NCBI RefSeq assembly: GCF_001880325.1
Contig: NZ_CP016312.1
Coordinates: 496,001-560,000 of the forward strand
DNA length: 64,000 nt
DNA from: Thermus brockianus
Lineage (GTDB): Bacteria > Deinococcota > Deinococci > Deinococcales > Thermaceae
Direction: 5' to 3'
Part shown: positions 519-63,659 of the stretch, piece by piece
Numbering within the stretch: position 1 is the first letter of the stretch
Layout of the letters: each line of letters starts with the position of its first letter
Notes under the pieces: generated by a model
What the model saw: the letters and a program-made list of their open reading frames with translations, nothing else
Told to the model about the DNA's origin: nothing
The model's database searches: none
Program-made: the position numbers and the translations under genes

Positions 519-1955
519 CCCTGAAGGAGCTCTTCGCCCCCTTTGGCCTCGAGGCCCCGCCCCAGGAGGTGCGGGGCATCACCCTGGACTCCAGGCGGGT
601 GGCCCCCGGCTTCGTCTTCGTGGCCGTCCCCGGGGTGCCCCTCCCCCACCGCAAGCCCCTGGACGGGCACGCCTTCATCCCCGAGGCCCTGGCCCGGGGG
701 GCCATCGCCGTGGTGGGGGAAAAGGACCTATCCCTGCCCGTGCCCTACCTCCGGGTGAAAGACGCCCGCCTGGCCATAGCCCTCCTCGCCCGGCGCTTTT
801 ACCGCGAGCCCGACGCCCTCCTCGCCCTCTTCGGCGTCACCGGCTCCAAGGGCAAGAGCACCACGGCAAGCCTCCTCCACCACCTCCTCCAGGCGGGAGG
901 GGTGAAGGCGGCGCTCCTCTCCACCGTGGGCCTGAGGCTGGGGAGGAAGCAAGGCCCCCCTTGGGCCACTTCACCACCCCCGAGGCCCCCGAGGTCTACG
1001 CCTTCCTCCGGGAGGCGGCGGACCGGGGGCTAAAGGCGGCGGTGCTGGAGGTTTCCAGCCACGCCCTGGCGCTCAAACGGGTGGAGGGGCTTGCCTACCG
1101 GGTGGGGCTTTTCGTGAGCTTCTACCCCGACGACCACCTGGACCTCCACGGCACGGCGGAAAACTACTTCCGGGCCAAGGCCCTTTTGGTGGAGCGCTCG
1201 GAGGTGGCGGTGCTCCACACGAGCCTCCCCCACCTGGAAGCCCTAAGGAAGCGGCCCCACCTCCTGGTGGGCCCCGGGGGGAGGTGTGGGCGGAAGGCGT
1301 AAGGGAGGAGGCAGAGGGGCTTCGCTTTCGCCTCCAAAGCCCCTGGGGCCAGGGCGAGGCCTTCCTGCCCCTCCTGGGGCCCTACAACGTGGACAACGCC
1401 CTCATGGCCCTGGCGGCGGCCCTCCACTTTGGGATTTCCCTGGAAGAGGCCCTAGCGGGCCTTGCCACCTTCCCCGGGGTGCCGGGAAGGATGGAGGTGG
1501 TGCAGAAGGCCCCCTTCCGGGTGGTGATAGACTTCGCCCACACGGGGAAAAGCCTGGAAGAGGCCCTCAAGACCCTAAGGCGCACCACCCGGGGAAGGCT
1601 TCTCCTCGTGGTGGGGGCGGCGGGGGAGCGGGACCCGCAGAGGCGGGAGGACATCGGCCGGGTGGCGGCCCGCCTCGCCGACCTCACCTTCTTCACCGAG
1701 GAGGACCACCGCACGGAGCCCCTGGAGGCGATCCTTAGCGCCCTGGCGGAGGCGGCCCGGCGGGAAGGGGGGAGGTTCCGGATCGTGCCGGACCGCCGGG
1801 AGGCCATTCTCCAAGCGGTCCTCGAGGCCCAGGAGGGGGACACCGTCCTCCTCGCCGGCAAGGGGCACGAGAACAGCTTAGAAAGGGGCCAAGAAGCCCT
1901 CCCCTGGAACGAGCGGGAGGTGGCGGAGGAAGCCCTCAGGATGCGGGGGCTTTAG
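515..1955 (+). pseudogene. murE: MurE-like Mur ligase, two frameshifts as assembled
   Basis: Three consecutive reading frames (515 to about 958, about 961 to 1280, about 1280 to 1955) together encode one complete Mur ligase. The N-terminal domain begins MTLKELFAPFG. The ATP-binding loop reads GVTGSKGKSTT, the central domain contains GHFTTPEAPE and EVSSHALA, and the C-terminal domain ends with GKGHEN. MurE adds the third residue to UDP-MurNAc-L-Ala-D-Glu in peptidoglycan synthesis. Frame is lost at a C6 run (955-960; a G run at 940-943 is the alternative) and at a G6 run (1276-1281). One extra base in each restores the family sequence. The usual DNPR motif of diaminopimelate-adding enzymes is replaced by an EEDHRTEP segment, which fits the ornithine-containing Thermus wall but leaves specificity open. 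Confidence 0.8.
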
Positions 1956-3263
1956 CGGGCAGGGGGGGCGTGAGGGCCTGAAGCCAGCGGGCGAAGGCGG
2001 AAAGGCCCCGCTGGTACATGGCCTCCCGCTTTTCCCGCTTCCCCATCCGCCCCTCCACGGGGGGCACCAGGCCCCAGTTGGCGTACATGGGCTGGAAGCC
2101 CTCGGGGTTGGCCGTGGCCAGGTAGCGGACCAGACCCCCCAAGAGGCTTTCCTCGGGCGGGGCCACGGGGGAAAGGCCTAGGGCCCGCCTTGCGGCGTTG
2201 AGCCCCGCCAGAAAACCGGTGGCGGCGCTTTCCAAGTACCCCTCCACCCCGGCGAGGACCCCAGCGGCGAAGAGGCCCTCCGCCCCCTGGAACTCCAGGG
2301 TCTCCCGGAGGAGCCTCGGGGCGTTGAGGTAGGTGTTCCGGTGCATCACCCCGTAGCGCACGATCTCGGCGTTTTCCAGGCCGGGGATCATCTGGATGAG
2401 GCGCTTTTGCTCCGGCCACTTGAGCCCCGTCTGGAAGCCCACCAGGCTCCAAAGCCGCCCCGCCTTGTCCTCCTGGCGGAGCTGCACCACGGCGAAAGGC
2501 TCCTTCCCCGTGCGGGGGTCCTTGAGCCCCACGGGCTTCAGGGGGCCAAAGAGAAGGGTCTGGTACCCCCTTTGGGCCAGCTCCTCCACCGGCACGCAGG
2601 CCTCAAAGAACTGCAGGTTCTCCCACTCGTGGGGCACGTGCCGCTCCGCGGCCACCAAGGCCTCGTAAAAGCGGCGGTACTCCTCCTCCGTCATGGGGCA
2701 ATTCAGGTAGTCAGCGCTTTGGCCGTAGCGCCCGGCGCGGAAGCACTTGCTGAGGTCAACGCTCTCGTAGAGCACCACGGGGCTTGCGGCGTCGTAGTAG
2801 GAGAGGAAGTGGTCCCCGAAACGGCGCTTCAGGGCCTCGGCCAGGGGCTCGGCGGTGAGGGGCCCCGTGGCCAAGACGGTGAGGCCTTCCGGGATCTCCC
2901 TCACCTCCTCCCGCACCAGTTCCAGCAGGGGGTGGCGGGAAAGCCTTTCCGTGATGAAGTGGCCAAACTCCTCCCGGTCCACGGCCAAGGCCCCCCGGCG
3001 GGGACCCGGGCCCTTTCCGCCGCCTCCATGACGAGGCTTCCCGCAAGGCGCATCTCCGCCTGCAAAAGCCCCTTGGCGTTGGCCATGCCCTCCCCGCCCA
3101 GGGAGTTGGAGCAGACGAGTTCGGCCAGAAGCCCCGTGGCGTGGGCCGGGGTCATGCGCTTCGGGCGCATCTCGTAAAGCCGCACGGGGATGCCCAGGCG
3201 CAAAAGGGTCCAGGCGGCCTCGCTTCCCGCAAGGCCCCCGCCCACCACGTTCACCCGTTCCAT
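1936..3263 (-). pseudogene. trmFO: TrmFO, folate-dependent tRNA U54 methyltransferase, frameshifted as assembled
   Basis: The N-terminal part (3263 to about 2997) starts [16 protein letters not shown], a Rossmann FAD-binding GxGxxG motif. The rest (about 2990 to 1936) continues with VLATGPLTAEPL, FFEACVPVEELA and GVLAGVEGYLESAATG, all typical of TrmFO, a flavoprotein that makes 5-methyluridine at position 54 of tRNA using methylenetetrahydrofolate. The two parts join at a C6 run on the plus strand (2991-2996). A seventh C gives RVPAGGALAVDR, the expected sequence. The combined length is about 442 residues, normal for the family. The 3' end overlaps the convergent MurE-like gene by 20 bases. 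A TAGCAT box lies seven bases before the ATG. Confidence 0.9.
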
Positions 3264-3270
3264 CCTTTAG

Positions 3271-3318
3271 ATGCTACCACCCAAGCGGGGAAGGGAAAAG
3301 TGGCCTATACTGGCCCCG
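3271..3318. promoter_or_regulatory. Divergent leaderless promoters for trmFO (-) and hisF (+)
   Basis: On the plus strand TATACT (3306-3311) lies seven bases before the hisF ATG at 3319. On the minus strand TAGCAT (3276 to 3271) lies seven bases before the trmFO ATG at 3263. Both spacings match leaderless transcription, with the message starting at or next to the start codon. No good -35 hexamer is visible for either. Confidence 0.55.
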
Positions 3319-4077
3319 ATGAGCCTCGCCAAACGCATCGTCCCCTGCCTGGACGTCCACGCCGGCCGGGTGGTCAAGGGGGTGAACTTCGTGAACCTGA
3401 GGGACGCCGGGGACCCCGTAGCGGCGGCCCAGGCCTACGACCAGGCGGGAGCGGACGAGCTCGTCTTTTTGGACATCTCCGCCACCCACGAGGAGAGGGC
3501 CATCCTCCTGGACGTGGTGGCCCAGGTGGCGGAAAGGGTCTTCATCCCCCTCACCGTGGGCGGGGGGGTGCGCTCCTTGGAGGATGCCCGGAGGCTCCTC
3601 CACGCCGGGGCGGACAAGGTGAGCGTGAACTCCGCCGCCGTGAAAAGGCCCGAGCTCATCCAGGAGCTCGCCGACCACTTCGGCGCCCAGGCGGTGGTCC
3701 TGGCCATTGACGCCCGCTGGCGGGGGGATTTCCCCGAGGTCTACATCGCGGGGGGAAGGGTGCCCACGGGCCTCCACGCCGTGGAGTGGGCGGTGCGGGG
3801 GGCAGAGCTTGGGGCCGGGGAGATCCTCCTCACCAGCATGGACCGGGACGGGACCAAGGAGGGGTACGACCTAAGGCTCACCCGCCAGGTGGCCGAGGCG
3901 GTGAACGTGCCCGTGATTGCGAGCGGCGGCGCGGGGCATATGGCGCACTTCCTCGATGCCTTCCAGGCGGGGGCGGAGGCCGCCTTGGCCGCCAGCGTCT
4001 TCCACTTCGGCGAGATCCAAATCCCCGAGCTCAAACGCTTCCTGGCGGAAAAGGGCGTGCGGGTGCGGCTAGACTAG
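3319..4077 (+). CDS. hisF: Imidazole glycerol phosphate synthase, cyclase subunit
   Basis: HisF is the TIM-barrel cyclase that, with the glutaminase HisH, turns PRFAR and ammonia into imidazole glycerol phosphate and AICAR in histidine synthesis. The 252-residue protein starts [21 protein letters not shown], with the first catalytic aspartate at about residue 12. AIDARWRG carries the second catalytic aspartate, and LTVGGGVRS and ASGGAG are the phosphate-binding loops. I chose the ATG at 3319 because it follows a TATACT box and matches the family N-terminus; the upstream 16 codons are not conserved-looking. hisIE follows four bases later. An intact run of seven G (3562-3568) lies inside the gene. 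Confidence 0.97.
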
Positions 4078-4081
4078 GGGC

Positions 4082-4705
4082 ATGGACCTGGAGGTGCGCT
4101 TTGACGAGCGGGGCCTCGTCCCGGTGGTGGTGCAGGACGCCCGCACGGGGGAGGTCCTCACCCTGGCCTACGCCAACCGGGAAGCCCTGGAGGAAACCCT
4201 AAGGACGCGGCGGAGCACCTTCTATAGCCGAAGCCGCCAGGCCCTCTGGCGCAAGGGGGAGACCTCGGGGCATTTCCAGGAGGTGGTGGAGGTCCTCCTA
4301 GACTGCGACGGGGACGCCGTGGTCTACAAGGTCCTCCCCAAGGGCCCCGCCTGCCACACGGGGGAAAGGAGTTGCTTCCACCGCCCCCTCCTCCAGGAGA
4401 AAGCCACCCCTAGCCTCGGGGAGGTGCTGGAACGGGTCTACGCCACCATAGGAGAAAGGCTAAGGACCCTCCCCGAAGGGAGCTACGTGGCGAAGCTTCA
4501 CCGGGCGGGCCTGGACCGCATCCTGAAGAAGATTGGCGAGGAAGCGGGGGAGGTGATCCTGGCCGCCAAAAACCACGACAAGGCCGAACTCCGCCACGAG
4601 GCGGCGGACCTCCTTTTCCACCTCCTCCTCACCCTGGCGGAGGAGGGGGTGGGGTTAGAGGACCTGGCCGAAACCCTCTGGGAGCGGCACAAACCCCGGG
4701 AATAG
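4082..4705 (+). CDS. hisIE: Bifunctional phosphoribosyl-AMP cyclohydrolase / phosphoribosyl-ATP pyrophosphatase
   Basis: A two-domain histidine biosynthesis enzyme of 207 residues. The N-terminal HisI half has LAYANREAL, the WRKGETSGH motif and the metal-binding segment LDCDGDAV followed by [11 protein letters not shown] with its zinc cysteines. The C-terminal HisE half, from about residue 115, has the [16 protein letters not shown] helix of the MazG-like PRA-PH fold. The protein acts on phosphoribosyl-ATP and phosphoribosyl-AMP, the second and third steps of the pathway. It lies four bases after hisF and is almost certainly co-transcribed with it. Confidence 0.96.
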
Positions 4706-4718
4706 GCCCCTGGGCCCT

Positions 4719-4724
4719 TATGAT
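4719..4724 (+). promoter_or_regulatory. Leaderless-type -10 box of glpX
   Basis: TATGAT ends six bases before the glpX ATG at 4731, the same geometry as many other genes in this window. No ribosome-binding site lies between the box and the start codon. Confidence 0.5.
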
Positions 4725-4730
4725 GGAACC

Positions 4731-5699
4731 ATGGAAATTGAGCGCAGGCTCGTCCTGGAAGTGGTGCGGGTGACGGAACAGGCGGCCTTGGCGGCGAGCC
4801 GTTTCGCCGGCAAGGGGGACAAGGAGGCGGTGGACGAGGCGGGCACCGAGGCCATGCGCCGGGTCTTAAACGAGCTCCCCATCCGGGGCACCGTGGTCAT
4901 CGGTGAGGGGGAGATGGACGAGGCCCCCATGCTCTACATCGGGGAGGTCCTGGGGCAGGGGGGCCTGGAGGTGGACATCGCCGTGGACCCCGTGGAGGGC
5001 ACCACCACCGCCGCCAAGGGCCTGCCCAACGCCGTGACCGTCATCGCCTTAAGCGAAAAGGGCGGGCTTTTCCACGCCCCGGACATGTACATGGAAAAGC
5101 TCATCGTCCCCCCGCCCGCCGCCGGGCTCGTGGACCTCACCTGGCCCGTCTCCGCCAACCTGAAGGCCTTGGCCCTGGCCCTGCAACGCTCGGTGGAGGA
5201 CCTGGTCATCGTGGTCCTGGACCGGCCCCGGCACGAAAGGCTCATCCGGGAGATCCGGGAAGCGGGGGCCCGGGTCAAGCTCATCTCCGACGGGGACGTG
5301 ATCGCCGCCCTGGCCGCCGCCATACGGGGAACCGGGGTCCACGCCGTCATGGGCATCGGCGGGGCCCCGGAAGGGGTCTTGGCCGCCGCCGCCCTCAAGT
5401 GCCTGGGCGGGGAGATCCAGGCCCGCTTCGTGCCGCAAAACGAGGAGGAGCGGGCGCGGCTTAGGGCCATGGGCGGGGACGAGAACCGGGTCTACCGCAC
5501 GGAGGACCTAGCCCCGGGCAAGGAGATCGTCTTCGCCGCCACGGGCATCACGGACGGGGACATCCTGGAGGGGGTGCGCTTCTTCGGCGGGGGGGCCAGG
5601 ACCCACTCCATCGTCATGGGCCACGCTACCCGGGTGGTGCGCTTTATAGACTCCATCCACCTCTTTGAAACCGGGGCCCGGGTCACCATACGGGTGTGA
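4731..5699 (+). CDS. glpX: Class II fructose-1,6-bisphosphatase
   Basis: A 322-residue GlpX-type phosphatase that hydrolyses fructose 1,6-bisphosphate to fructose 6-phosphate in gluconeogenesis. The metal and substrate motifs are [24 protein letters not shown] near residue 85 and [16 protein letters not shown] in the second half. The length matches the family. The C-terminus ends ARVTIRV only a few bases before the right end of the tnpB element, so the insertion sits immediately downstream without damaging the gene. A run of seven G (5589-5595) is intact. Confidence 0.95.
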
Positions 5700-5704
5700 C
5701 GACT

Positions 5705-5724
5705 CCCCGCTCTTCAGAGCGGGG
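5705..5724 (-). ncRNA. Right-end hairpin, probable 3' scaffold of the TnpB omega RNA
   Basis: CCCCGCTCT is followed, after a two-base TC loop, by AGAGCGGGG. The hairpin sits about ten bases beyond the ancestral tnpB stop (5734-5736). In IS605-family elements the omega RNA comes from the tnpB 3' end plus the right end and runs into flanking DNA. Here it would run leftward into the 3' end of glpX, so the resident guide would be drawn from the glpX coding region. The family knowledge is established; the exact RNA ends are inference. Confidence 0.45.
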
Positions 5725-5733
5725 CTTCTCAGT

Positions 5734-6871
5734 TCAGAACGCGAGGGCATCCCTCCCCGAAGGCCCCGTCCAGGCCTTCGCCAGGATGTTCCGCGCAGCG
5801 GCCACATGGCCACATCCCGGTGCAGGGAAGTCCCACAAGCGGGACAGGTGAACTCCCTGACCCACAAGGGTCGCCTCTCCCTGTGGCCGCACACCGGGCA
5901 GTCCTGGCTGGTGTACTTAGGGTCTACCGTTATCACTCGCCTACCAGCCTCCTCCGCTTTGTAGGCAAGGATCCGCAAAAACTGAGCCCAACCAGCGTCA
6001 TGTACGCCCTTAGCCACGTGGCTACGGCTCAGACCTAGGATGTTCAGGTCTTCGTGGACGATGGTTCCATAGCGGTTCACCAACCCCCGGGCCACCTTGT
6101 GGTGAAAATCCAGCCGTTGCCGGGCTACCTTCCGGTGAAGCCGGGCAAGCTCCTCTTTTGCCTTGTCGTACCGGTTGCTACCCCGTTTCTTACGGGAAAG
6201 CTCCCTCTGCTTCCTAGCTAGTTTGTTTTGAGCCTTTTGATAATACCTGGGGGCTTCTATCTTCTCCCCCTCCGAGGTGATGAGAAAGTGAGGGTTGGTC
6301 CCCAGGTCAATGCCCACCGCCTCGCCAGAAGGGGAAAGGGGTTTGGGCTCCACCTCGCAGATAAGTATCAGGTACCATGCATCCCCTTCCCGCTTGACCG
6401 TGGCGGTCTTGAGTTGCCCCTCTAAGGGTCGGTGAAGCTTCACCTTTACCGAACCAACGCCGTGGATGAGCACCCGCTTCCCCCCTCCTGGAGTTTGACC
6501 CCGGTGGCGTAGGCTTGGGGGAAGGTGAAGGAGTCGTAGCGTCCCTTTCCCTTGAACCGGGGATAACCGGCTTTTCCCCCTTTGGCCCTAACCCGACGGA
6601 AGAAGCCTTGAAAAGCCCGGTCTACCCTTTGGAGAACGTCTTGCAGGACCTGGGAGTGGACCCTTTGGTACTCGGGCAGGTCAGCCCGTATCTCGGGGAG
6701 CCATCGCTTTTGCTCGTGGAGGGAGAGGCTTTTCTTCGCCTTCTTGTAGGCCTCCCTCCTCTCCTGAAGGGCGGCGTTGTAGAGCTGGCGGCAGAGTTCC
6801 AGGGTGCGTTCTAGGTCTTTTTGTTGGGGCTTGGTGGGATAGAGGCGGTATTTGAAGGCTCTACGCGCCAC
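5734..6871 (-). pseudogene. tnpB: TnpB RNA-guided nuclease, decayed by two frameshifts
   Basis: The N-terminal part (GTG start at 6871, MARRAFKYRLYPT) and the middle part are out of frame. A seventh C in the C6 run at 6480-6485 joins them as KLQEGGKRVLIHGVG. RuvC motifs are present: AVGIDLGTN (first Asp), TIVHEDLNI (Glu) and LHRDVA (last Asp), with a CPVCG / CPACG zinc finger. Just after the last catalytic Asp an 8-bp tandem duplication, GGCCACAT twice at 5800-5815, shifts the frame again and replaces the expected AARNILAKAWTG tail. As assembled, that frame then runs on into glpX antisense sequence. The GTG start is preferred over the ATG at 6892 because family proteins begin at this point. 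Confidence 0.85.
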
Positions 6872-7000
6872 CTGTCTACCATGACAGGGCATCTGGCGCC
6901 CACGATGCTCTGTCTGCCTCCAGAGGGCGGGGGGGAGGCCATGTATCCCAGGGGCGGAAAGTCCGGGGGATTATGGCTCCTCCACGCCCACTCTCTTCTG

Positions 7001-7006
7001 TAAAAT
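7001..7006 (+). promoter_or_regulatory. Leaderless-type -10 box of apgM
   Basis: TAAAAT ends six bases before the apgM ATG at 7013. It lies just outside the tnpB element. Confidence 0.5.
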
Positions 7007-7012
7007 GGCCCC

Positions 7013-8230
7013 ATGGACCTCTTTCCCATCCTCCAGGAACTCCACCAACCCGGCGGCAAAATCCTCCTCGTGGTCCTAGACGGCGTGGGGGGGCTTCCCT
7101 TAGAGCCAGGAGGCCCCACGGAGCTGGAGGCGGCCCAAACCCCTAACCTAGACCGCCTGGCCGCGGAGAGCGCCCTAGGCCTCCTCACCCCCGTCCACCC
7201 GGGCCTTGCCCCCGGCTCGGGCCCTGGGCACCTGGCCCTCTTCGGCTACGACCCCTTCCGCTACGTGGTGGGCCGAGGGGCCTTGAGCGCCTTGGGGCTG
7301 GGGGCGGACTTCCGGGAAGGGGACGTGGCCCTAAGGGGCAACTTCGCCACCTTGGATGCGGAAGGGAAGGTGGTGGACCGCCGGGCAGGGAGGCCCTCCA
7401 CCGAGGAAAACCAACGGGTGATCGCCAAGCTCAAGGAGGCCATCCCCCGGATAGAGGACGTGGAGATCCACTTCTACACGGAAAGCGAGCACCGCTTCTT
7501 GGTGATCCTAAGGGGCGAGGGCCTGGGGGACGGGGTGACGGACACCGACCCGCAGAAGGCGGGCCTTCCCCCCTTGGAGGCTAGGCCCCTGGACGAGGCC
7601 TCCCGGAAGACCGCCCACATCCTTAACCTCCTCGCCGAGCGCATCCGGGCGGTCCTTAGGGACGAACCCCGCCTCAACGGGGCCCTCTTCCGGGGGGCCT
7701 CCCAAAAGCCCCGGTTCCCCAGCTTCCAGGAGGTCTACAGCTTAAGGGCAGCGGCCGTGGCCAGCTACCCCATGTACAAGGGCCTCGCCGCCTTGGTGGG
7801 GATGGAGGTCCTCCCCGTGGAAGGGGAAGGGGACGCCCACGAGGGGAAGCTCAAGGCCCTGCGGGAGAACTGGGATCGGTACGAGTTCTTCTACCTCCAC
7901 TTCAAGAAGACGGACGCCAAGGGGGAGGACGGGGACTTCCTTGGCAAGGTGCGGGAGATTGAGCGCTTTGACGCCTTCCTGCCCGAGCTCCTCGCCCTAA
8001 AGCCCGAGGTCCTCGCCCTCACCGGGGACCACTCCACCCCTGCGGCCTTGAAGGCCCACTCCTGGCACCCCGTGCCCCTCCTCCTCAAGGCCCCTTACCT
8101 GCGGCGGGACGAGGCGGGGCGCTTCACGGAGGCCGAGGCCCTCAAGGGAAGCCTCGGGCACCTGCGGGGGGTGGAGCTCATGCCCCTCCTCCTCGCCCAC
8201 GCCGGAAGGCTTTTAAAGTACGGGGCCTAG
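7013..8230 (+). CDS. apgM: Cofactor-independent phosphoglycerate mutase, archaeal type
   Basis: A 405-residue metalloenzyme of the alkaline-phosphatase superfamily that interconverts 3- and 2-phosphoglycerate in glycolysis. It shows the metal-binding start [12 protein letters not shown], the nucleophile region [25 protein letters not shown] and the late metal-binding motif [20 protein letters not shown]. The archaeal-type length and motif order separate it from the longer GpmI. It ends on the CTAG at 8227-8230, shared with the stop of the convergent nrnA. Confidence 0.93.
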
Positions 8231-9213
8231 AGGTACCCCGCCCGCCTAAGCTCCTCCTGGACCGCCTCGAGGACGAGCTCGTAAGCCCGGTCCAGGTCCA
8301 CCCCCTTCAGCGTGGCCCCGGCGGCGGGCACGTGCCCGCCGCCCCCGAGCTTCAGGGCGATATTCTGGGCGGAAACCCCGCCCCGGGAGCGGATGGACAC
8401 CTTCACCCCCTCCTCCCGCCTGCGCAGGAAGACGGAGACCACGCTCCCCTCCACGTAGCGGATAAGGCCCACGAAGTCGTCGGAGTCCTCCTCCTCCCGC
8501 TTGGCCTCCTCGGGCAGGTGGGCGGTGACGAGAAGCCCCCCGAAGTGGAAGGCCACGGTGGAGAGCACCTGGCCCATGAGGCGGAAGTAGGAGGGGGGGC
8601 GGAACTGGAGGCGGTCGGTGAGCTCGGCGAGCCTCACCCCGTAGCCCACGAGCTCCGCCGCCACCCGAAGCACCTCGGGGGTGGTGTTGGCGAAGCGGAA
8701 GTTGCCGGTATCCGTGAGGATGCCGGTGAGCACGGGGGTAGCGATCTCCTCCGTCCAGGCCACCCCCAGGAGGTCAATGAGGTCCTTGACCATCTGGGCC
8801 GTGGCCGCCTTGGAGGGGTCCACCACGTGGAGGTGGCCGAAGCGGGGATTGGTGCCGTGGTGGTCAATGTTGATGACGAAGCCCTCCACCGGCACCCCCA
8901 CCACCCTCGAGGGCTCGGCGCTGTCCAAGGCCACCAGGGTGGCCCCAGGGGGAAGCTTCTCCACGGGGTCGGAGTACTCTTCCTCCTTGGGGAGGAAGCG
9001 GAGGAAGCGGGGAGGCTCGGCCACCCAGCGGGCGTCCTTGCCCAAAGCCTTGAGCGCCCGGTAAAGGCCCAAGGAGCTCCCGATGGCGTCCCCATCGGGG
9101 TCCACGTGGGTGGCGATGTAGATGGGGCCCTCCACCGCCTTGAGCACCTCGGCCACGAGCCGCATCTTTTCCCAGTACTTGGGGTCAGGGGCGTTCCCGT
9201 CCACGAAGCCCAT
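8227..9213 (-). CDS. nrnA: DHH-family nanoRNase / pAp phosphatase
   Basis: A 328-residue DHH/DHHA1 phosphoesterase, probably degrading short RNA oligonucleotides and 3'-phosphoadenosine 5'-phosphate. Motifs in order are [14 protein letters not shown] near residue 35, [10 protein letters not shown], the signature [20 protein letters not shown], and the DHHA1 glycine loop [14 protein letters not shown] near the C-terminus. It is the last gene of the leftward aroA-cmk operon, one base after the SDR gene. Thermus NrnA-type enzymes with these activities are known; assignment here rests on motifs. Confidence 0.9.
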
Positions 9214-9214
9214 C

Positions 9215-24565: not shown

Positions 24566-24605
24566 GCCCGCCGGGACATCCTTACCTCCCCTTCCCTGTT
24601 AAACT

Positions 24606-27705: not shown

Positions 27706-28886
27706 TCAGCAAGGAAGAGGTCAAACGACTACGCGAGGCCATCGGCAAGGCGGAAGGTCCCGTGCTCTCCCTGTACCTGGACGTGAACCCGGCCAAGCCG
27801 GAAAACGCCTCCAGGGCCTACGCCCTGAGGGCCAAGGACGCCATGAAGGCCCTTAAAGTCCCCGAGGACCTGGCGGAGAAGGTGCTGGAAGTCCTAAAGA
27901 ACCAGGTCCTGGAAGCCAAGACCGCCGTCTTCTTCGCCGGGGAAGACCTCTTTGAGGTCCTTCTCCTGCAAGTGGAACTCCCCCTGGTGAGTGCGGTCAA
28001 GGCGCACTTCCAGGAGGAAAAGGAAAGCCGCCTCCTCACCGACGGGGCCTTGGCCCACTACGGCCCTCCCTTCCTCCTCCCCTTGGTCTACGCCCTGGAC
28101 GAGTACGAGCGCTACGGGGTGGTCTACGTGGACCAGGAACGCTGGCGGGTCTTTGAGGTCTTCCTGGGAGAAATTGAGGAGGTCCAGGACGCCTTCCTGG
28201 CCCTGGACACCGAGGCCTGGCGCCGCCTCAGCCTGGACGCCCCGGGCCGCCGCTTCAACCTAGGGGGCATCGCCCGGGGTGGGGCCGGGCAGGACCTTTT
28301 CGCCAAGCGCCTGGAGGCCTGGGAGGAGCGGTTTTACAAGGCCCTGGCCCATGAGCTGGAAAAGCTCGTGGAGGCCAGGGGCTTCACCCGCCTCCTCCTC
28401 ATGGGCCCCGAGGAGCACACCAAGCTTTTCTTGGGCTACCTGCCCAGGCGGCTGAAGGAGAAGGTGGCGGGCCTCCTCCCCTCCCTTCCCCACCCCGGGG
28501 CCACCCCCGGCCAGGTCCTCAAGCGCCTGGAGCCGGAACTTTCCGCCATTGAACGGGCCAAGGAGGTGGAACTCCTCAAGAGCCTAGAAGAAGCCTATCC
28601 CAAGGCGGTCTTTGGCCCCGAGGTGCTAGAGAGGGTCCAGGAGGGGCGGGTGGAGCTCTGGGTCCTACCCTGGACCCTGGACCAGGGGGTCTACGCCTGC
28701 GATGGCCTTTACTTCGCCGAGGAGGCCAAGGCCCTGGCCTTCTGCGGGCACTCAGAGAGCAAGCCCTTGGCCGTGGTGCTGCCCGAGCTCGCCACAGGCT
28801 ACGCTACCAAGCTGGAGTTCGTGCGTGGCGAGGCCGAGCAAAGGCTTCTAGAGCGTGGCGGTATGGCTGCGCTCTTGAGGTGGTAA
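27702..28886 (+). CDS. baeRF-like (archaeo-eukaryotic release factor 1-type) protein
   Basis: A 394-residue protein resembling bacterial eRF1-like families (baeRF/VLRF1). The N-terminus has the typical VLSLYLDVNPAKP, the centre has YGVVYVDQERWRVFEVFLGEIEE and a TRLLLMGPEEHTKLF segment, and the end has an LPWTLDQGVYACDGLYF region and ELATGYATKLEFVRGEAEQRL. Relatives are thought to act at stalled ribosomes or as peptidyl-tRNA hydrolases; function here is untested. No eukaryotic-type GGQ motif is visible. It lies between clpB and hsp20, which suggests a role under heat stress. Confidence 0.6.
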   Translation: MISKEEVKRLREAIGKAEGPVLSLYLDVNPAKPENASRAYALRAKDAMKALKVPEDLAEKVLEVLKNQVLEAKTAVFFAGEDLFEVLLLQVELPLVSAVKAHFQEEKESRLLTDGALAHYGPPFLLPLVYALDEYERYGVVYVDQERWRVFEVFLGEIEEVQDAFLALDTEAWRRLSLDAPGRRFNLGGIARGGAGQDLFAKRLEAWEERFYKALAHELEKLVEARGFTRLLLMGPEEHTKLFLGYLPRRLKEKVAGLLPSLPHPGATPGQVLKRLEPELSAIERAKEVELLKSLEEAYPKAVFGPEVLERVQEGRVELWVLPWTLDQGVYACDGLYFAEEAKALAFCGHSESKPLAVVLPELATGYATKLEFVRGEAEQRLLERGGMAALLRW

Positions 28887-31401: not shown

Positions 31402-31820
31402 ATGAGCCAAGACGCCCTCCTCGCCCTTTACCGGAGGGCCACCCGCCTGGTCTTCAACCTGGTGGTGGTGGCCCTCTTGGTGGGCCTTTTTGTGGGGGTA
31501 GGGCGCACCTTCCTGGAACTCGGCCTCACCCTGAGCGAGCCCACGGTGCGCTTGGGCCTGAAGGAACTCGTTACCAACGTCCTAAGCCTTATTATCGTTC
31601 TGGAGCTGGTCCGGGTTTTTGTGGAATATTTTGAGTTTGAGCGGGTGCGCCTCGAGGTCCTCCTGGAAATCGGCGTGGCCCTAGCCCTACGGGAACTCCT
31701 TCTCCTGCTGTTTGCGGAGAAGGTGGGGGGCTAGACCTCTTCTTCTGGAGCCTAGGGATCCTCGCCCTGGTGGCGGGGCGCACCCTGGCTGTGCGGTTTC
31801 CCCCAAGGAGGGCAGAATGA
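31402..31820 (+). CDS. PsiE-like membrane protein, frameshifted near its C-terminus as assembled
   Basis: A small membrane protein of the phosphate-starvation-inducible E family. Hydrophobic segments are LVFNLVVVALLVGLFVGV and ELVTNVLSLIIVLELVRVFVEY, followed by the family-typical VRLEVLLEIGVALALRELLLLLF. The uncorrected frame stops at 31734 after EKVGG. A seventh G in the G6 run at 31725-31730 continues it as LDLFFWSLGILALVAGRTLAVRFP up to a stop at 31818-31820, which supplies a further membrane helix and overlaps the next ATG (ATGA). I regard the longer form as the true gene. Function is unknown. Confidence 0.75.
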
Positions 31821-53121: not shown

Positions 53122-53122
53122 A

Positions 53123-54940: not shown

Positions 54941-54944
54941 GGGC

Positions 54945-55319
54945 ATGAAGGCCATCCAGACCGACAGAGCCCCTCAGGCCATCGGTCCCTACAGCCAGGC
55001 GGTGCGGGCTTTGGGCTTCGTCTTCGTTTCCGGCCAGATCCCCCTCACCCCCGAGGGCACCCTGGTGGAAGGGGACATCCGCGCGCAGACCGAGCGGGTG
55101 ATGGAAAACCTCAAGGCCATCCTCGAGGCGGCGGGCTCGGGGCTTGACCGGGTGGTCCAAACCACCTGTTTCTTGGCCGATATGGAGGACTTTCCCGGCT
55201 TCAACGAGGTCTACGCCCGCTACTTCGCCCCTCCCTACCCCGCCCGGGCCACGGTGGCGGTCAAAGCCCTGCCCCGGGGGGTACGGGTGGAGGTGGCCTG
55301 CGTGGCCCTGGCGGAATGA
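54945..55319 (+). CDS. ridA: RidA/Rid family enamine deaminase
   Basis: A 124-residue trimeric protein hydrolysing reactive enamine/imine intermediates such as those from threonine and serine dehydratases. The family pattern is complete: PQAIGPYSQAVRALGFVFVSGQIPL, VMENLKAILEAAGSGLDRVV, and the active-site arginine in YPARATVAVKALPRGVRVEV. It starts four bases after the kinase stop. Confidence 0.94.
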   Translation: MKAIQTDRAPQAIGPYSQAVRALGFVFVSGQIPLTPEGTLVEGDIRAQTERVMENLKAILEAAGSGLDRVVQTTCFLADMEDFPGFNEVYARYFAPPYPARATVAVKALPRGVRVEVACVALAE

Positions 55320-55339
55320 TGCGTCCCTGCAAAAAAGCG

Positions 55340-55345
55340 TAGAAT
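55340..55345 (+). promoter_or_regulatory. Leaderless-type -10 box of meaB
   Basis: TAGAAT ends six bases before the ATG at 55352. Confidence 0.45.
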
Positions 55346-55351
55346 AGCGCC

Positions 55352-56296
55352 ATGGCGCACGAAGCCCACCTGGAGGATCTGGAAGGCCGCTTTCGCGCGG
55401 GAGACGTGCGGGCTTTGGCCCGGGCCCTCACCCTGGTGGAGGCGGGACACCCCCTGGGCCAGGCCCTCCTCAAACGGGTGCGGGGCCAAGGGAGGGCCAA
55501 GGTGGTGGGCATCACGGGAAGCCCGGGGGCGGGGAAGAGCACCCTCACCGACCGCCTCATCCTCGAGGCCCGCAAGCGGGGCGAGAAGGTGGGGGTGCTG
55601 GCCGTAGACCCCAGCAGCCCTTTTACCGGCGGGGCCATCCTGGGGGACCGGATCCGCATGATGCGCCACCACCAAGACCCTGGGGTCTACATCCGCTCCC
55701 TGGCCTCCCGGGGCGCCCTAGGAGGGCTCGCCGGGGCCACGGTGGCCGCCTTGGCCCTCCTGGAGGCCTTCGGTTTTGACCGCATCTTCGTGGAAACCGT
55801 GGGGGTGGGCCAGAGCGAGGTGGACATCGCCCGGGTGGCGGACACCACCCTCCTCGTCCTCACCCCAGCGGCGGGGGATGCGGTACAGGCCTTCAAGGCG
55901 GGGGTCATGGAGATCGCCGACCTCTTTGCCGTGAACAAGTTTGACCTTCCGGGCGGGGAGCGGCTCATCCAGGAGCTCAAAAGCGCCCTGGAACTCTCGC
56001 CCCCAAGGCCCGGGGGCTGGCGCCCCCCCATCTACCCCACGGTGGCGGCCACGGGGGAGGGGGTGGAGGAGCTCTTTGAGGGCCTCGAGGCCCACCACCG
56101 CCACCTCCTGGAGCATGGCCTCCTGGAAGGCCACCGCCTGGAGCGGGCCCGGTTTGAGGTGGAAAGCGTCCTCCAAGAATGGGGCCGGCGCCGCACGCAA
56201 AGCGCCGGGGAACTGGTCCGGCGCGTGGCCCAAGGCGAGCTCTCCCCCGAGGAGGCCGCCCTCGCCCTCCTGGACCCCAGCGCCAAGCCGGCCTAG
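55352..56296 (+). CDS. meaB: Methylmalonyl-CoA mutase-associated GTPase MeaB
   Basis: A 314-residue G3E-type GTPase protecting and loading the B12-dependent methylmalonyl-CoA mutase. Motifs: Walker A GSPGAGKSTL near residue 57, LAVDPSSPFTGGAILGDRIRM, ETVGVGQSEVDIA with the G3 region, and the NKFD guanine motif. The mutase subunits are not in this window. The stop lies on a CTAG shared with the Nudix gene. The TAGAAT box gives a leaderless message. Confidence 0.95.
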   Translation: MAHEAHLEDLEGRFRAGDVRALARALTLVEAGHPLGQALLKRVRGQGRAKVVGITGSPGAGKSTLTDRLILEARKRGEKVGVLAVDPSSPFTGGAILGDRIRMMRHHQDPGVYIRSLASRGALGGLAGATVAALALLEAFGFDRIFVETVGVGQSEVDIARVADTTLLVLTPAAGDAVQAFKAGVMEIADLFAVNKFDLPGGERLIQELKSALELSPPRPGGWRPPIYPTVAATGEGVEELFEGLEAHHRHLLEHGLLEGHRLERARFEVESVLQEWGRRRTQSAGELVRRVAQGELSPEEAALALLDPSAKPA

Positions 56297-56726
56297 CCCC
56301 TAGGGTAGCGCAACAGGGCCTTGCGCAGCATCTCCCGCTCGTTGGGGTAGGAAAGCCGGTTCAAGGCCTCGGCCACCGGCAAGAAGTAGGCAGCCTCCAC
56401 CTCGGAAAGCTGGGGCCGAGGCTCCCCACCCCGGTAGGCCATGAGGAAGTAGTGCACTTCCTTGCTCACCGTTACCGGGACGTCCCCATCCTTCACCGTG
56501 AAGTAGTAACGCACCTTTCCCAGGGGGGAGAGCACCGCCGCCTCCACCCTGGTTTCCTCCCGTACCTCCCGCACCGCGGTCTCCGGGTAGCGTTCCCCCG
56601 GCTCCACCTGGCCCTTGGGCAAGGTGACCACCTTTCCTCCTTTTAGGGACACCACCAGGACCTCGGGAGGATCCCCCCGGAGGACCACCCCCCAGCGGAA
56701 ACCACCCGCTTCCTGGCTGTCCGCAT
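56293..56726 (-). pseudogene. Nudix hydrolase, frameshifted near its N-terminus as assembled
   Basis: The downstream frame contains a full Nudix box, KGQVEPGERYPETAVREVREET, and ends RYPRG. Its only upstream codons run into the 16S terminator and the 16S 3' end, so the open frame up to 56853 is not real. An ATG at 56726 in another frame reads MRTARKRVVSAGG; adding a seventh C to the C6 run at 56688-56693 joins it to VVLRGDPPEVLVV, the expected first strand of a Nudix fold. The corrected protein has about 144 residues. It lies 38 bases beyond the 16S terminator. A GTG at 56688 is the fallback start if no frameshift exists. Confidence 0.75.
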
Positions 56727-56763
56727 CTGCCGCTTCCTGCGCAAGGCCCCGCTCCTCAGCAAC

Positions 56764-56787
56764 AAAAAAGGGCGCCCGAAGGCGCCC
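56764..56787 (-). terminator. Terminator of the 16S rRNA gene
   Basis: On the minus strand GGGCGCC-TTCG-GGCGCCC is followed by TTTTTT. A UUCG tetraloop closes the 7-bp stem, an unusually stable design for a hot cell. It ends the transcript about 45 bases after the 16S 3' end. Confidence 0.92.
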
Positions 56788-56825
56788 CCAAGGATCCGAA
56801 AAGGGGAAAGCAGAGGCCCTATGCT

Positions 56826-58351
<1,526 letters not shown>

Positions 58352-58370
58352 AAAACGCCACTAGGGCGTT
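58352..58370 (-). promoter_or_regulatory. Leader stem-loop before 16S
   Basis: On the minus strand AACGCC-CTAG-TGGCGTT can fold and is followed by TTTC, directly at the 16S 5' end. It may be a processing or antitermination element rather than a stop. Confidence 0.4.
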
Positions 58371-58449
58371 GGTTGCGTGTTTGCTTGGACCTCTGCTCTC
58401 CCCTTTTCAAGATCCCCCTGCTTGGGCTTTCGCCCGCGCAGCAAAAGCT

Positions 58450-58478
58450 ATGCTATCAACCTTCCCCCTTCTTGTCAA
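58450..58478 (-). promoter_or_regulatory. Promoter of the 16S rRNA gene, inside the nrdR 3' end
   Basis: On the minus strand TTGACA (58478 to 58473) and TAGCAT (58455 to 58450) are 17 bases apart. The -35 lies within the nrdR coding region and the -10 begins one base after the nrdR stop. The leader to 16S is about 95 bases. Confidence 0.75.
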
Positions 58479-58917
58479 CACCCCCTAGGCGGCGGATCTC
58501 CTCAATGAAGCGCTCCACGGAGTCAAACTCCCGGCAGACGGAGGCGAAGCGGATGTAGGCCACGTGGTCCAACTCGCGCAGGAAAGCCATGGCCTTAAGG
58601 CCGATTTCCTCCGAGGAAATCTCTGGGCCCGCCACCTGGTCCTCAAAGGTGTAGGCGAAACGCCGCAAGGCCTCCTGGTCCACGGGGCGCTTCTCGCAGG
58701 CCAAGAGGAGGCCCCGGAGGAGCTTGTCCGGGTTGAAGGGTTCCTTACGCCCATCCCGCTTCACCACCATCAGGGGCTCTAGCTGCGTGCGCTCGTAGGT
58801 GGTGAAACGGCGGCCGCAACCGGGGCACTCCCGGCGGCGGCGGATGGCCGCCCCCTCGTCGGAGGGGCGGGAGTCCACCACCCGCGTGTCGGGATGGCCG
58901 CAGTAGGGGCATTTCAT
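58456..58917 (-). CDS. nrdR: Transcriptional repressor NrdR
   Basis: A 153-residue regulator of ribonucleotide reductase genes. The N-terminal zinc ribbon has CPYCGHPDTRVVDSRP and CPGCGRRF with four cysteines, and the ATP-cone follows (VVKRDGRKEPFNPDKLLRGLLLA). It senses ATP/dATP and binds NrdR boxes. The 3' end overlaps the 16S promoter. It follows the SDR gene (58914) with four bases of overlap, in the same direction. Confidence 0.95.
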   Translation of the reverse strand: MKCPYCGHPDTRVVDSRPSDEGAAIRRRRECPGCGRRFTTYERTQLEPLMVVKRDGRKEPFNPDKLLRGLLLACEKRPVDQEALRRFAYTFEDQVAGPEISSEEIGLKAMAFLRELDHVAYIRFASVCREFDSVERFIEEIRRLGGVDKKGEG

Positions 58918-59621
58918 GGGACTTCCCGCAGGAGCTCGTACACCTCAGGGGAGGTGGGGGGCTCGGGGAGCTGCACCTCCAGCACCACCCCCCGGATGCC
59001 CTCGGACACCATGGACCCAAGGCCCAAGGCGGCCCGCACCAAGGCCTGGTCGTAGGCCTCCCCCACGGGGTCGCGGGAGGGCACCACCCCGTTCACCCGC
59101 ACCCCGGGGAAGGTGCGGCTGGCCCCCTCAATGAGCCCCTCCACCGCCTTGCGCACGGAAAGGGTGTGGGGCTCCATGCGGGCGGAAGGGGGCAGGACCA
59201 AGGTGACAAACCCCCCACCCGCCAGGTGCCGGAGGCCGTGTTGCAGGACGTAGAGGCTACTCTTCACGTCCTGGCTCATGAGGTCGTACCACTCCCCTTC
59301 CAAAAGCTCCACGAAGGGGGTCTTGCTCTCGGCGGTGGTCACGTGGACGATGCCGTCCAAAAGGCCGAAGAGCTCCTCCACCTTCTCAAAGGTGTTGGTC
59401 ACGTCCAAGACCACGCTCATATCCCCCCGGATGGGGATGGCCGTGGCCCCCAAGGCCTCCACCTCGGAGGCCACGGAGGTGGCCAGCTCCACGTCCGGGT
59501 CCACGGCGATGACCGTGGCCCCGTTCCGCCCGTAGCCGTGGGCGATGGCCCGCCCGAAGCCCCGGCCGGCCCCGGTCACCATGACGATCCGCCCCTCGAG
59601 GCCCAACAGGTCCCGTGACAT
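58914..59621 (-). CDS. SDR-family oxidoreductase
   Basis: A 235-residue short-chain dehydrogenase-like protein. The cofactor loop is [13 protein letters not shown], but the usual Tyr-x3-Lys catalytic motif is absent in this reading: the region holds [16 protein letters not shown] instead. It may therefore be a catalytically altered member or use another residue. I chose the ATG at 59621 ([10 protein letters not shown]) because TACAAT (59634 to 59629) lies seven bases before it; the ATG at 59630 is an alternative. It is divergent from the macrodomain gene. Substrate unknown. Confidence 0.75.
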
Positions 59622-59628
59622 CAGGCCC

Positions 59629-59643
59629 ATTGTAAGGGAAAAT
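59629..59643. promoter_or_regulatory. Divergent leaderless promoters for the SDR (-) and macrodomain (+) genes
   Basis: GAAAAT (59638-59643) ends six bases before the plus-strand ATG at 59650. TACAAT on the minus strand (59634 to 59629) ends seven bases before the ATG at 59621. Confidence 0.45.
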
Positions 59644-59649
59644 GAAGGC

Positions 59650-60129
59650 ATGGCCCGAATCCGCGTGGCCCAAGGGGACATCACCGAGTTCCAGGGGGAC
59701 GCGATCGTCAACGCCGCCAACAACTACCTGAAGCTGGGGGCAGGGGTGGCGGGGGCCATCCTGCGCAAAGGGGGCCCCTCCATCCAGGAGGAGTGCGACC
59801 GCATCGGCAAAATCCGCGTGGGGGAGGCGGCGGTCACGGGGGCGGGGAACCTCCCCGTCCGCTACGTGATCCACGCCGCCGTCTTGGGAGACGAGCCGGC
59901 GAGCCTGGAAACGGTGCGCCAGGCTACCCAAAGCGCCCTAGCCAAGGCGGTGGAGCTCGGCCTAAAGACCGTGGCCTTTCCCCTTTTGGGCACCGGGGTG
60001 GGGGGGCTTCCCGTGGCGGAGGTGGCGCGGGTGATGCTGGAGGAGATCAAGAAGGCCCCGGACACCCTCGAGGTCACCCTCTACGGCTACCGGGAAGAGG
60101 ACGCCGAGGCCATCCGCCGGGCCCTCTAG
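59650..60129 (+). CDS. Macrodomain protein (ADP-ribose or O-acetyl-ADP-ribose processing)
   Basis: A 159-residue single macrodomain, starting [20 protein letters not shown]. The signature [23 protein letters not shown] holds the catalytic/binding asparagines, and [23 protein letters not shown] is the phosphate loop. Such proteins hydrolyse ADP-ribosyl esters or deacetylate O-acetyl-ADP-ribose. The stop lies on a CTAG shared with the GNAT gene. I chose the ATG at 59650 by its box spacing and the family N-terminus. Confidence 0.93.
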
Positions 60130-60554
60130 AGGGGTTTGCGGAAGCAGACGATGCGCTCCACCTCTTCGTAGCCCAGGTGGCGGTGGGCCTCCTGGCCGAG
60201 GAGGTTCGCGAGCGCCGCATCCGAGGCCATCTCCCGACACCCCTTGGCCCTGGCCCAGGCCTCGGCCGCCTCCACCAAGGCCCGCCCCACCCCCCGGCGC
60301 CTCCAGGAGGGCAGCACATACCACCCCTCCAAATACCCCACGGGCCGGGTTTCGCATCCTTCGGCGTAGGGGCGGAGGGAAACCTCCACGAAACCCACCA
60401 AGCGCCCTTCGGCTTCCGCCACGAAAGCCATCGCTTGGGGATCCCGCAGGAGGGCTTCCACCTCCTCCGCCTCGTCCCCGCCCTCGGGCCAAAGCTGGAC
60501 CCGCAAGGCCAGGTAGTCCGCCAGCTCCTCCCGCCTTAGGGGCCGGATCCTCAC
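60126..60554 (-). CDS. GNAT N-acetyltransferase, AAC(6')-like
   Basis: A 142-residue acetyltransferase of the GCN5 fold. The acetyl-CoA loop is [17 protein letters not shown] (Q/RxxGxG/A), and [11 protein letters not shown] and [27 protein letters not shown] closely follow the pattern of aminoglycoside 6'-acetyltransferases. Whether an aminoglycoside or a metabolite is the substrate cannot be decided. The start is GTG, overlapping the lipoprotein stop (GTGA). Confidence 0.87.
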
Positions 60555-61402
60555 GGCGCCCGCTCCTCTTCTTGGCCAGGGGAGGCCTTGGGGAAGTACC
60601 CCTCGGCCAAGGCTTTCAGGTCCTCCCCGTCCACCTTGCCGTCCCCGTTTTGGTCCCCCTTAAGGCCCTCGCCCTCCTTGCCCAGGTTCTGCGCCACCTC
60701 CCAAAGGGCGGCGAAGGGCTTGCCCCGGGGCAAGGGCTGGCCTAGGGGCTTTCCTTCCTTGTCATAGAGGACCACCTTGGGGGAAAGCCTGGGGGCGAGG
60801 GGCTTCGCAGGGGTGAGGAGGAGGCGGAAGGCCTCCTGGTCCTTGAGGGGCTTGGCGAAGGCCATGTCCAGGCGCAGGAGGCTAGAGGCGGGGTCAAAGT
60901 CCAGGAGGTAGGCGGGGCTTAGGGCCTTAAGGCTTTCCAGGGCGGGGGTGAGGTCCTTCAGGGGAAGCTCCAGCTGGAAGCCCACCGCCTCCCTTACCTC
61001 CACCCGCCCAAGGAGGAGGAAGGGGGCCTCCACCTGGGCCTGGGGAGCCACCAGGGTAAGCCTAGGCAGGGGCGGGTCGGAAACGGTGAGGGTGAGCTTC
61101 TGGGCCCGGCTGTTCTTGGCCCCGTCCTCCACGGTGAGGATGAGGGAGAACTGGCCCTTTTCCTTGGGCACCCCGCTAAGCCGCCCCCCTTGGAAGACGA
61201 GGCCCTGGGGGAGCCTACCCTCCAGGCTGAAGCTGTAGGGCCTCACCCCCCCTTCGGCGCTGAAGGCGGCGCTATAGGGCTCGCCCAAGTAGGCGGGGGG
61301 AAGGGTGGTGGCGGTGAGGCGGAGGGCCTCGAGGCCCGTCCCGCCCGGGTCCTGGGTGCCGCAGGCGGCCAGGAGGAGGAGAAGGGGCCAGGCCTTGCGC
61401 AT
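60551..61402 (-). CDS. Lipoprotein with Ig-like domain and dockerin-like calcium motif
   Basis: A 283-residue lipoprotein. The signal [11 protein letters not shown] carries a lipobox with Cys near residue 14. An Ig-like (He_PIG type) domain follows: [21 protein letters not shown] and [21 protein letters not shown] second beta region resembles a cohesin-type domain ([14 protein letters not shown]). The end holds [22 protein letters not shown], one EF-hand calcium loop like half a dockerin repeat. It is displayed on the cell envelope; function unknown. TAGGCT lies six bases before the ATG. Confidence 0.8.
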
Positions 61403-61408
61403 AGGAAA

Positions 61409-61425
61409 AGCCTAACCGCTATAGT
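61409..61425. promoter_or_regulatory. Divergent leaderless promoters for the lipoprotein (-) and dcd (+)
   Basis: TATAGT (61420-61425) ends seven bases before the dcd ATG at 61433. TAGGCT on the minus strand (61414 to 61409) ends six bases before the lipoprotein ATG at 61402. Confidence 0.5.
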
Positions 61426-61432
61426 TGAAGGC

Positions 61433-61978
61433 ATGATTAAGCCGGACTGGTGGATCCGGGAGATGGCCAAAAAGGGGATGATAGAGCCCTTTGAGGAGAG
61501 GCTCGTGCGGGAAGGGGTCATCAGCTACGGCCTTTCCTCCTTCGGCTACGACCTAAGGGCCGCCCCGGAATGGAAGATCTTCACCAACGTTTTCTCCACC
61601 GTGGTGGACCCCAAGAACTTTGACGCGCGGAGCTTCGTGGAGTACGAGGGCGAAGAGGTCATCATCCCCCCCAACTCCTTCGCCCTCACCCGGAGCATAG
61701 AGTACATCCGCATGCCGGAAAACGTGATCGCCATTGCCTTGGGCAAGAGCACCTACGCCCGGTGCGGCATCGTGGCCAACGTGACCCCCTTGGAACCGGG
61801 CTGGGAAGGCCACGTGACCCTGGAGATCTCCAACACCACCCCCCTCCCCGCCAAGGTCTACGCCGGGGAGGGCATCGTGCAAATCCTCTTCCTGGAAGGC
61901 CCTAGGCCCGAAACCACTTACAAGGACCGCAAGGGCAAGTACCAGGGGCAAAGGGGCATTACCCTGCCCCGGGTGTAG
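61433..61978 (+). CDS. dcd: dCTP deaminase
   Basis: A 181-residue trimeric deaminase giving dUTP from dCTP for thymidylate synthesis. Start [20 protein letters not shown], nucleotide motifs [37 protein letters not shown] with the catalytic Glu region, and [14 protein letters not shown]. The family start and the TATAGT box support the ATG at 61433. A dUTPase function (bifunctional Dcd-Dut) cannot be excluded. Confidence 0.94.
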
Positions 61979-61981
61979 GCT

Positions 61982-62584
61982 ATGGGGGTGCGCGTCCTCC
62001 TCCTTCTCCTCGTCCTCCTTAGCGCCTGCAAGGGTGAGAGCATGAAGCCCCTTCCCTACCTTTCGGAAAAGCCCGTGCGCTCCTTCAAGGCCCCTGAGCC
62101 GGTGCTAAAGCCCGGCAAGGACTACTACGCCCGCCTCAGGACCACCCAAGGGGATATCCTCTTGGACCTTCTGGAGAAGGAAACGCCCAACACGGTGAAC
62201 TCCTTCGTCTTCCTGGCCCTTCACCGCTACTTTGACGGGGTGGTCTGGCACCGGGTCATCCCCGGCTTCGTGGCCCAGACGGGGGACCCCACGGGCACGG
62301 GCCGGGGTGGGCCCGGCTACACCTTTGGCCTGGAGATCGTCCCGGGCCTGGCCTTTGACCGGGAGGGCCTGGTGGGCATGGCCCGCACCCAGGACCCCAA
62401 CTCCAACGGGAGCCAGTTCTTCATCACCCTGGCCCCCACCCCCCACCTCACGGGGCAGTACACCCTCTTCGCCAAGGTGGTGGAGGGGATGGAGGTGGTG
62501 CGCCGCCTGGCCCCCACGGAGGGCCCCGGGGCCAGGGCGACCCCGGACCGCATCCTCAGCGTGGAAATCCTCGTGAAGGAATGA
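61982..62584 (+). CDS. Cyclophilin-type peptidyl-prolyl isomerase lipoprotein
   Basis: A 200-residue protein with a lipoprotein signal ([13 protein letters not shown]) and a cyclophilin domain: [31 protein letters not shown], then [32 protein letters not shown]. The catalytic Arg is in WHRVIPGF. It probably helps fold envelope proteins outside the membrane. It starts three bases after dcd and overlaps hisZ by four bases (ATGA). Confidence 0.92.
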
Positions 62585-63659
62585 TCCCCGAAGGCACCCG
62601 CTTCCTCCTCCCCCCCGAGGCCCGGCTCAAGGCCGAGCTCCAAAGGCGGCTCCAGAAGCTCTTCTGGCAGCACGGCTACGAGCCCGTGGAGCTTCCCGCC
62701 CTCGAGGCCTTTGACCCTAGCCATCCCCTGGCGGAAAGGGCCTTCAAGCTGGTGGACAAGACGGGGGAGGTGCTCGCCCTAAGGAGCGAGTTCACCACCC
62801 TTCTCGCTAAGCTCCTAAGGCCCCACCTGAAGGAAGGGGCCCACCGCTTCCAGTACGCCGGGGCCCTTTGGCTACGGGAAGGGGATGCGGAGCTTGGGCG
62901 GCTTCGCGAGTACACCCAGGTGGGGCTAGAGCTCATCGGGGTCACGGGGCCCAAGGCGGACGCGGAGGTCCTCCACCTGGCCTTTGCCGCCCTCGAGGCC
63001 CTGGGCCTAGACGGGGTGGTGGAGGTGGGCCTGCCGAGCCTGGTGGGGGAGGTGCTCAAGGCCTCGGGCCTGCCGGAAGGGGCTAGAAGGGCGGCGCAGG
63101 CCGCCATCCACCGCAAAAACCTCCCCGAGCTTTCCGCCCTCCTCGCCCGCCACCCGGTGCCGGAAGGGGTGAAGAAGGCCCTCCTCGCCCTCCCTGACCT
63201 CTACGGGGAACCAGAGGTCCTAAAGGAGGCCAAGGCCCTGCCCCTCCCCCCAAGGCGCAGAAGGCCCTGGCCGACCTGGAGAGGACCCTGAAGCTTCTGG
63301 AAAGGCCCGTCCTCCTGGACCTGGGTATGGCCCGGCGGTACGAGTACTACTCGGGCATCTTCTTCCGGGCCTACACCCCGGGCTTCGGCCTGCCCCTCCT
63401 GGGGGGTGGGCGGTACGATGGGGCCCTTCTGCCCCAAGCGGCGGGCTTCGCCTTGGGGGTGGAACGGGCCCTGGAGGCCCTAAAGCTTCCCCAGGCGGAG
63501 GAACCCCCTGAGGTCTTGGCCCTGGACCTGAAGGCCCTCCGCCACTTCGCCCGGGAAAGGCGGGTGGAGCTTTACCACGGGGAAGACCCCGTGGCCTACG
63601 CCAAGGCCAAAGGCATCCCCTACCTGGCGGAAGGGGAGCGCATCTGGGAGGTGGTGTGA
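62581..63659 (+). pseudogene. hisZ: HisZ, regulatory subunit of ATP phosphoribosyltransferase, frameshifted as assembled
   Basis: The first part (62581 to about 63245) resembles a class II aminoacyl-tRNA synthetase-like His[37 protein letters not shown] and RYAG-like [17 protein letters not shown]. The second part (about 63250 to 63659) continues [19 protein letters not shown] and [12 protein letters not shown]. They join at the C6 run 63246-63251: with a seventh C the reading is [18 protein letters not shown]. HisZ with the short HisG forms the first, feedback-regulated enzyme of histidine synthesis. The stop overlaps the hisG start (GTGA). Confidence 0.9.

Follow-up and report, generated by a model that had tools for sequence, protein, structure and literature searches.

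The frame breaks found in a 64,000-base stretch of the Thermus brockianus GE-1 chromosome, affecting genes such as murE, trmFO and hisZ, are very probably errors in the deposited sequence and not in the organism, judging from comparison with related genomes; the genes themselves would be intact in the cell. The stretch, here termed the window, comprises bases 496,001-560,000 of contig C1 (2,035,182 bases), in an assembly of 2,388,273 bases and three contigs. GE-1 is a published complete genome of its species, and consists of a chromosome of 2,035,182 bases and the plasmids pTB1 (342,792 bases) and pTB2 (10,299 bases). According to the portions of the genome report consulted, it was assembled with HGAP2 and Quiver from PacBio RS II reads alone, generated on one single-molecule real-time (SMRT) cell at approximately 157-fold coverage, and its authors claimed a quality value (QV) above 50 and 66 pseudogenes (PMC5292009). 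It is, in other words, a PacBio RS II assembly that lacks short-read correction. A sequence-only reading of the window had proposed that the consensus was undercalled at short runs of C or G, and this is supported by the sequencing method, by similar losses elsewhere in the genome, by their 27:1 direction, by the damage to murE and murB, by the two copies of the 16S ribosomal RNA (rRNA) gene and by a published precedent in Thermus.

Seven single-base losses had been described in the window. The runs exist at the positions given, and alignments with relatives show a net difference of one missing base at all seven; 27 Thermus genomes were searched for the stretch containing murE and trmFO, and 14, chosen by the analyst, for the remaining sites. 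Two of these assemblies, G010 and G011, are approximately one genome, being equal in 43,253 of 43,257 columns. The proposal that every break lies at a run of six C or G needing a seventh held in so far as each place is one base short, but not for the first break in murE, which is at a run of four G, nor for the C4 run at 57700 described below, and only ambiguously for the psiE-like gene and hisZ. In murE (approximately 515-1955, forward strand), this first break had been assigned to C6 at 955-960, which was discarded because the nearest relative, G024, keeps the same C6 unchanged. The alternative offered, the G run at 940-943, proved to be correct: G024 has G5 where the window has G4, and this is the one base by which the two differ in 500 around the site. 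The second murE break coincides with G6 at 1276-1281, which is G7 in G024, G021, G010 and G011. Over approximately 820 bases covering both breaks, murE differs from its G024 counterpart in nothing but the two lost bases.

An eighth loss, overlooked in the earlier reading, is in the 16S rRNA gene at 56832-58351 (reverse strand), and surfaced in a comparison of run lengths with G024, where C4 in the window was matched by C5. The two 16S copies in GE-1 agree over 1,520 bases apart from one C at 57700, the run at 57700-57704 being C4 in the window and C5 in the other copy. The extra base is present, as either C5 or CCCTC, at all 11 loci from relatives (10 genomes) for which the alignment covered 600 bases or more. 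A similar internal contrast is provided by tnpB, part of an IS605-type element, which is broken at C6 at 6480-6485 (reverse strand) into pieces at 5508-6473 and 6446-6892. A second copy of this gene in GE-1 carries C7, and its frame is open for 401 amino acids; it has 97% identity to the first over 500 bases, and the element as a whole 98%. In total, eight bases have been lost from the window, and none of its coding G/C runs has gained one.

These losses are more numerous than would be expected by chance: at QV50, 0.64 errors are expected in 64 kb, and hence the Poisson probability of observing at least seven is 5e-6. A three-way scan for private one-base deletions found seven in the window and none in G010/G011 (49,172 columns for both), one in G024 (at 24587; 34,690 columns) and none in G021 (40,164 columns). 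The seven in the window comprise five of the sites already described and two more (33419 and 33474) where the sequences diverge, while those in tnpB and the nudix gene are not listed. A codon-usage scan against G011 picked out only four of the seven sites (both in murE, and those in trmFO and hisZ). It also marked two places at gene junctions, namely a 7-base insertion at 4708 and, in the comparison with G024, a base at 28884. Four of the seven sites lie within 6 kb, a degree of local clustering matched by 8% of shuffles.

The same pattern is found elsewhere on the chromosome. Ten other stretches were fetched (192,000 bases), of which 132,677 bases aligned to G010, a different species with 93% identity. 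A codon-usage scan of these detected 12 coding losses of one base each, spread over 11 genes and in every case at a G/C run; this total excludes a +1/-5 pair from divergent sequence (locus L110, positions 921 and 966), and also a difference in dnaX, where it is G010 that is out of frame. The genes affected include murB, rsmH, mnmE and truD, and those for a DegV protein, an aminotransferase and a glycosyltransferase; NCBIfam offers no family for two of the genes hit. When runs were tabulated, admitting only those with three matching bases on both sides, 12 of the 204 chromosomal G/C runs of at least six were one base shorter in GE-1 and none was longer (2 of 56 for the window against G011, and 10 of 148 for the other stretches against G010). 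In two pairs of other assemblies compared over the same window, no run of at least six was changed (0 of 43 and 0 of 32, or 0 of 75 together; p = 0.04 against GE-1), and in pairs of other assemblies the codon scan raised four flags in 148,089 aligned bases, none of which was a base lost from a long G/C run.

A comparison within the species was possible for the megaplasmid. pTB1 was aligned over 267,757 bases with pTbrSNM4-1b of T. brockianus SNM4-1, an assembly described in the consulted part of its report as made from Nanopore and MiSeq reads with Pilon polishing (PMC9302132). Among 1,919 G/C runs of at least five, selected by the same requirement for matching flanks, 14 were one base shorter in GE-1, one (of seven) was one longer and one (of five) was two longer. 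By length, the shorter runs numbered 3 of 1,448 at five, 6 of 373 at six, 4 of 85 at seven, 0 of 12 at eight and 1 of 1 at nine. An effect confined to the chromosome had been considered when the first 62,583 plasmid bases contained no losses, and was dropped once the sample had grown to 267,757. Occurring in the window, in the ten further stretches of chromosome and on the megaplasmid, the losses are genome-wide rather than local.

When the one-base changes at G/C runs of at least five are pooled, there are 27 losses and a single gain (p = 2e-7), and the losses climb with run length, from 4 of 2149 at five through 12 of 520 at six and 9 of 140 at seven to 2 of 15 at eight or more. It had been objected that intact runs of seven and eight in the window speak against a technical cause; since only a small fraction of runs is short at every length, most long runs are expected to be intact if the cause is technical, and the objection falls. 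The 39 losses collected are divided almost equally between G runs (20) and C runs (19), and their flanks show no strong preference relative to 1,030 other runs, with a C two bases before the run in 49% against 32%, a difference to which no significance test was applied. The loss rate is about one per 9,000 to 19,000 bases, and the counts imply a QV of 39.6 to 42.8, such that the declared figure of above 50 is approximately ten-fold too good.

Both murE and murB, which are essential, are broken in GE-1. Across Thermus assemblies, murE is unbroken in 26 of 27, and in three pieces only in GE-1; there is no second murE in GE-1, the next best match scoring 47.5 bits, where the cut-off is 257.3. Of the 26 assemblies in which murB was matched, 24 have it whole; it is split in GE-1 and in G024. 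The split copy in the latter (G024:C10:23782-24581) belongs to a draft assembly of about 60 contigs.

An artefact of this kind is already known in the genus. In T. thermophilus NAR1, sequenced on PacBio RS II and assembled with HGAP3, 2927 deletions and one insertion were reported relative to Illumina data (PMC7694296). The deletions fell for the most part in G/C homopolymers five to six bases long; according to the parts of that account consulted, the error was common to more than 90% of PacBio reads, gyrA and gyrB seemed to be truncated, and no sequence pattern was described (PMC7694296). As far as these parts go, the two cases share the genus, the instrument, HGAP and Quiver-era software and one-base deletions in G/C runs, together with a near absence of insertions, the false truncation of essential genes (murE and murB in GE-1) and the small share of runs affected. 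They differ in frequency, NAR1 having approximately one deletion per 1,000 bases, and in proof, which came from Illumina reads for NAR1 and for GE-1 comes from relatives. In Mycolicibacterium hassiacum, a thermophile of high G+C content but another genus, the excerpts consulted give 483 positions with a missed base and an affected share that rises with run length (PMC10832570), again a length-dependent loss of one base from G/C tracts. Its rate, quoted as approximately one per 10,000 bases (PMC7694296), is near that of GE-1; most of its cases are in runs of four, whereas those in GE-1 are in runs of five to seven. GE-1 is a further case of this PacBio artefact, and is not named as affected in the portions of the published accounts examined, although no wider search of the literature was made on that point. 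The PacBio RS II chemistry and the consensus step would drop one base from a small proportion of G/C runs, with a frequency that grows with run length, and the missing bases would have stayed uncorrected because no second technology was used on GE-1. Accurate reads would be expected to contain them, and the cause would lie in the instrument and not in any oddity of the DNA. There is a slight chance that the dropouts instead mark unusual native Thermus DNA, such as a modified base or a stable G-rich structure, that makes the PacBio polymerase skip; were this so, the 'errors' would form a map of an undescribed modification.

It seems very improbable that the bases are really gone from GE-1, leaving true pseudogenes, whether through a mutator lineage or through slippage in laboratory culture. 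Long G/C runs are generally mutable, and other insertions and deletions are seen between Thermus genomes, but the GE-1 runs show 27 losses against one gain. Genuine decay would also have had to strike the single-copy essential murE twice and murB once, while leaving no further disabling change in the approximately 820 bases of murE compared with G024 (the only gene so examined), and to have affected one of two 16S copies, the remainder of which is identical. A mixture of six- and seven-base alleles in a polyploid population, with the consensus taking the shorter, appears barely credible. Thermus is polyploid, and such a mixture would fit with viability despite a broken murE and murB, but nothing would make the shorter allele prevail every time, and the one-sided direction fits the documented instrument error.

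That the runs are truly short, with slippage of RNA polymerase or ribosomal frameshifting rescuing their products, is likewise exceedingly doubtful, and the data lend no support to the suggestion of polymerase slippage made in the earlier reading. There is a precedent in the A9 run of Thermus dnaX, which, in the part of the report consulted, uses transcriptional slippage (PMC5009743), and both there and at the GE-1 sites the effective length of a homopolymer sets the reading frame. The likeness ends there: the dnaX run is of nine A and kept across the genus (24 of the 26 matching Thermus genomes have A9, and the run is intact in GE-1, locus L164), whereas the GE-1 runs are of G or C, shorter, at four to seven as deposited, and mostly private to one assembly, with most relatives lacking the shorter form. 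No long run kept in relatives was found at the window sites, where the runs are of four to six G or C and most relatives differ in length or sequence. There are losses, too, in the 16S rRNA and in regions that show no coding signal, where rescue would be senseless.

Several observations count against reading all of the losses as artefacts, and bear chiefly on individual sites. In trmFO, the C6 run at 2991-2996 (reverse strand) is C7 in G010, G011 and G024, but C6 also in G016, an assembly that is 87% complete, and G003 is one base short there too. The C6 run near the start of the nudix gene (56688-56693, reverse strand) is C7 in G010, G011 and G021, but a base is missing close by in G016 as well, and in G024, where it is a T; this is the weakest of the seven cases, because the codon scan raised no flag there and because of these two other short assemblies. 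A neighbouring substitution accompanies two of the eight losses in the window. In the psiE-like gene, the G6 run at 31725-31730 (forward strand; first piece of the gene 31402-31734) corresponds to an A followed by G6 in the closest relatives, and hence either the A would have been dropped, or it would have changed to G and the resulting G7 been read as G6. The hisZ gene (approximately 62581-63659) has C6 at 63246-63251 (forward strand), where the closest relatives have TT followed by C6, and G006 and G026 have C7; again, either a T would have been dropped, or it would have changed to C and C7 been read as C6. As the neighbouring letter also differs from the closest relatives, a pure change of run length is not proven at these two sites. 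For both hisZ and trmFO, the family was identified from a relative's open frame.

Other such points concern the genome-wide counts. Three of the 12 chromosomal losses outside the window have a neighbouring substitution, and some of the 12 may be real, given that the reference is another species with 93% identity. The plasmid rate is below that of the chromosome (11 of 471 against 12 of 204 runs, p = 0.03). Runs of three and four go the opposite way, with one loss and four gains, and one A/T run of four is also one shorter (1 of 202). Across all of the plasmid alignments, with repeat arrays and divergent stretches included, there are 45 one-base losses and 45 gains; the asymmetry belongs to clean G/C runs.

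By rough extrapolation, the GE-1 record may contain approximately 180 to 260 false frame breaks, some in essential genes, and one false loss in a 16S rRNA gene. Statements on gene loss, pseudogenes or missing enzymes that draw on this record require the sequence to be corrected first. A like signature in G016, a picked example looked at further since its trmFO seemed short too, suggests that other Thermus records need correction as well: relative to G026, 7 of its 77 G/C runs of at least six are one base shorter and none is longer, and over 50,868 aligned bases its coding sequence has lost a single base at 13 places.

Some further features were noted. The 3' end of the 16S rRNA gene is followed directly by the start of the nudix gene (window 56293-58351, reverse strand), an order that is the same in the aligned relatives. 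The dnaX run is A10 only in the nearly identical G010 and G011 (loci L165 and L166), and the G010 open frame stops just past the run, at 455 amino acids; on this sequence, the usual arrangement would be inverted, with slippage required for the longer product. One of the chromosomal stretches, L114 (G000:C1:1912001-1928000), has up to 99.8% identity to G010 between approximately 3,600 and 9,900, against an average of 93%, and contains an excisionase-like gene. This is probably mobile DNA, and single-base G/C losses make up a large share of its few differences from G010.

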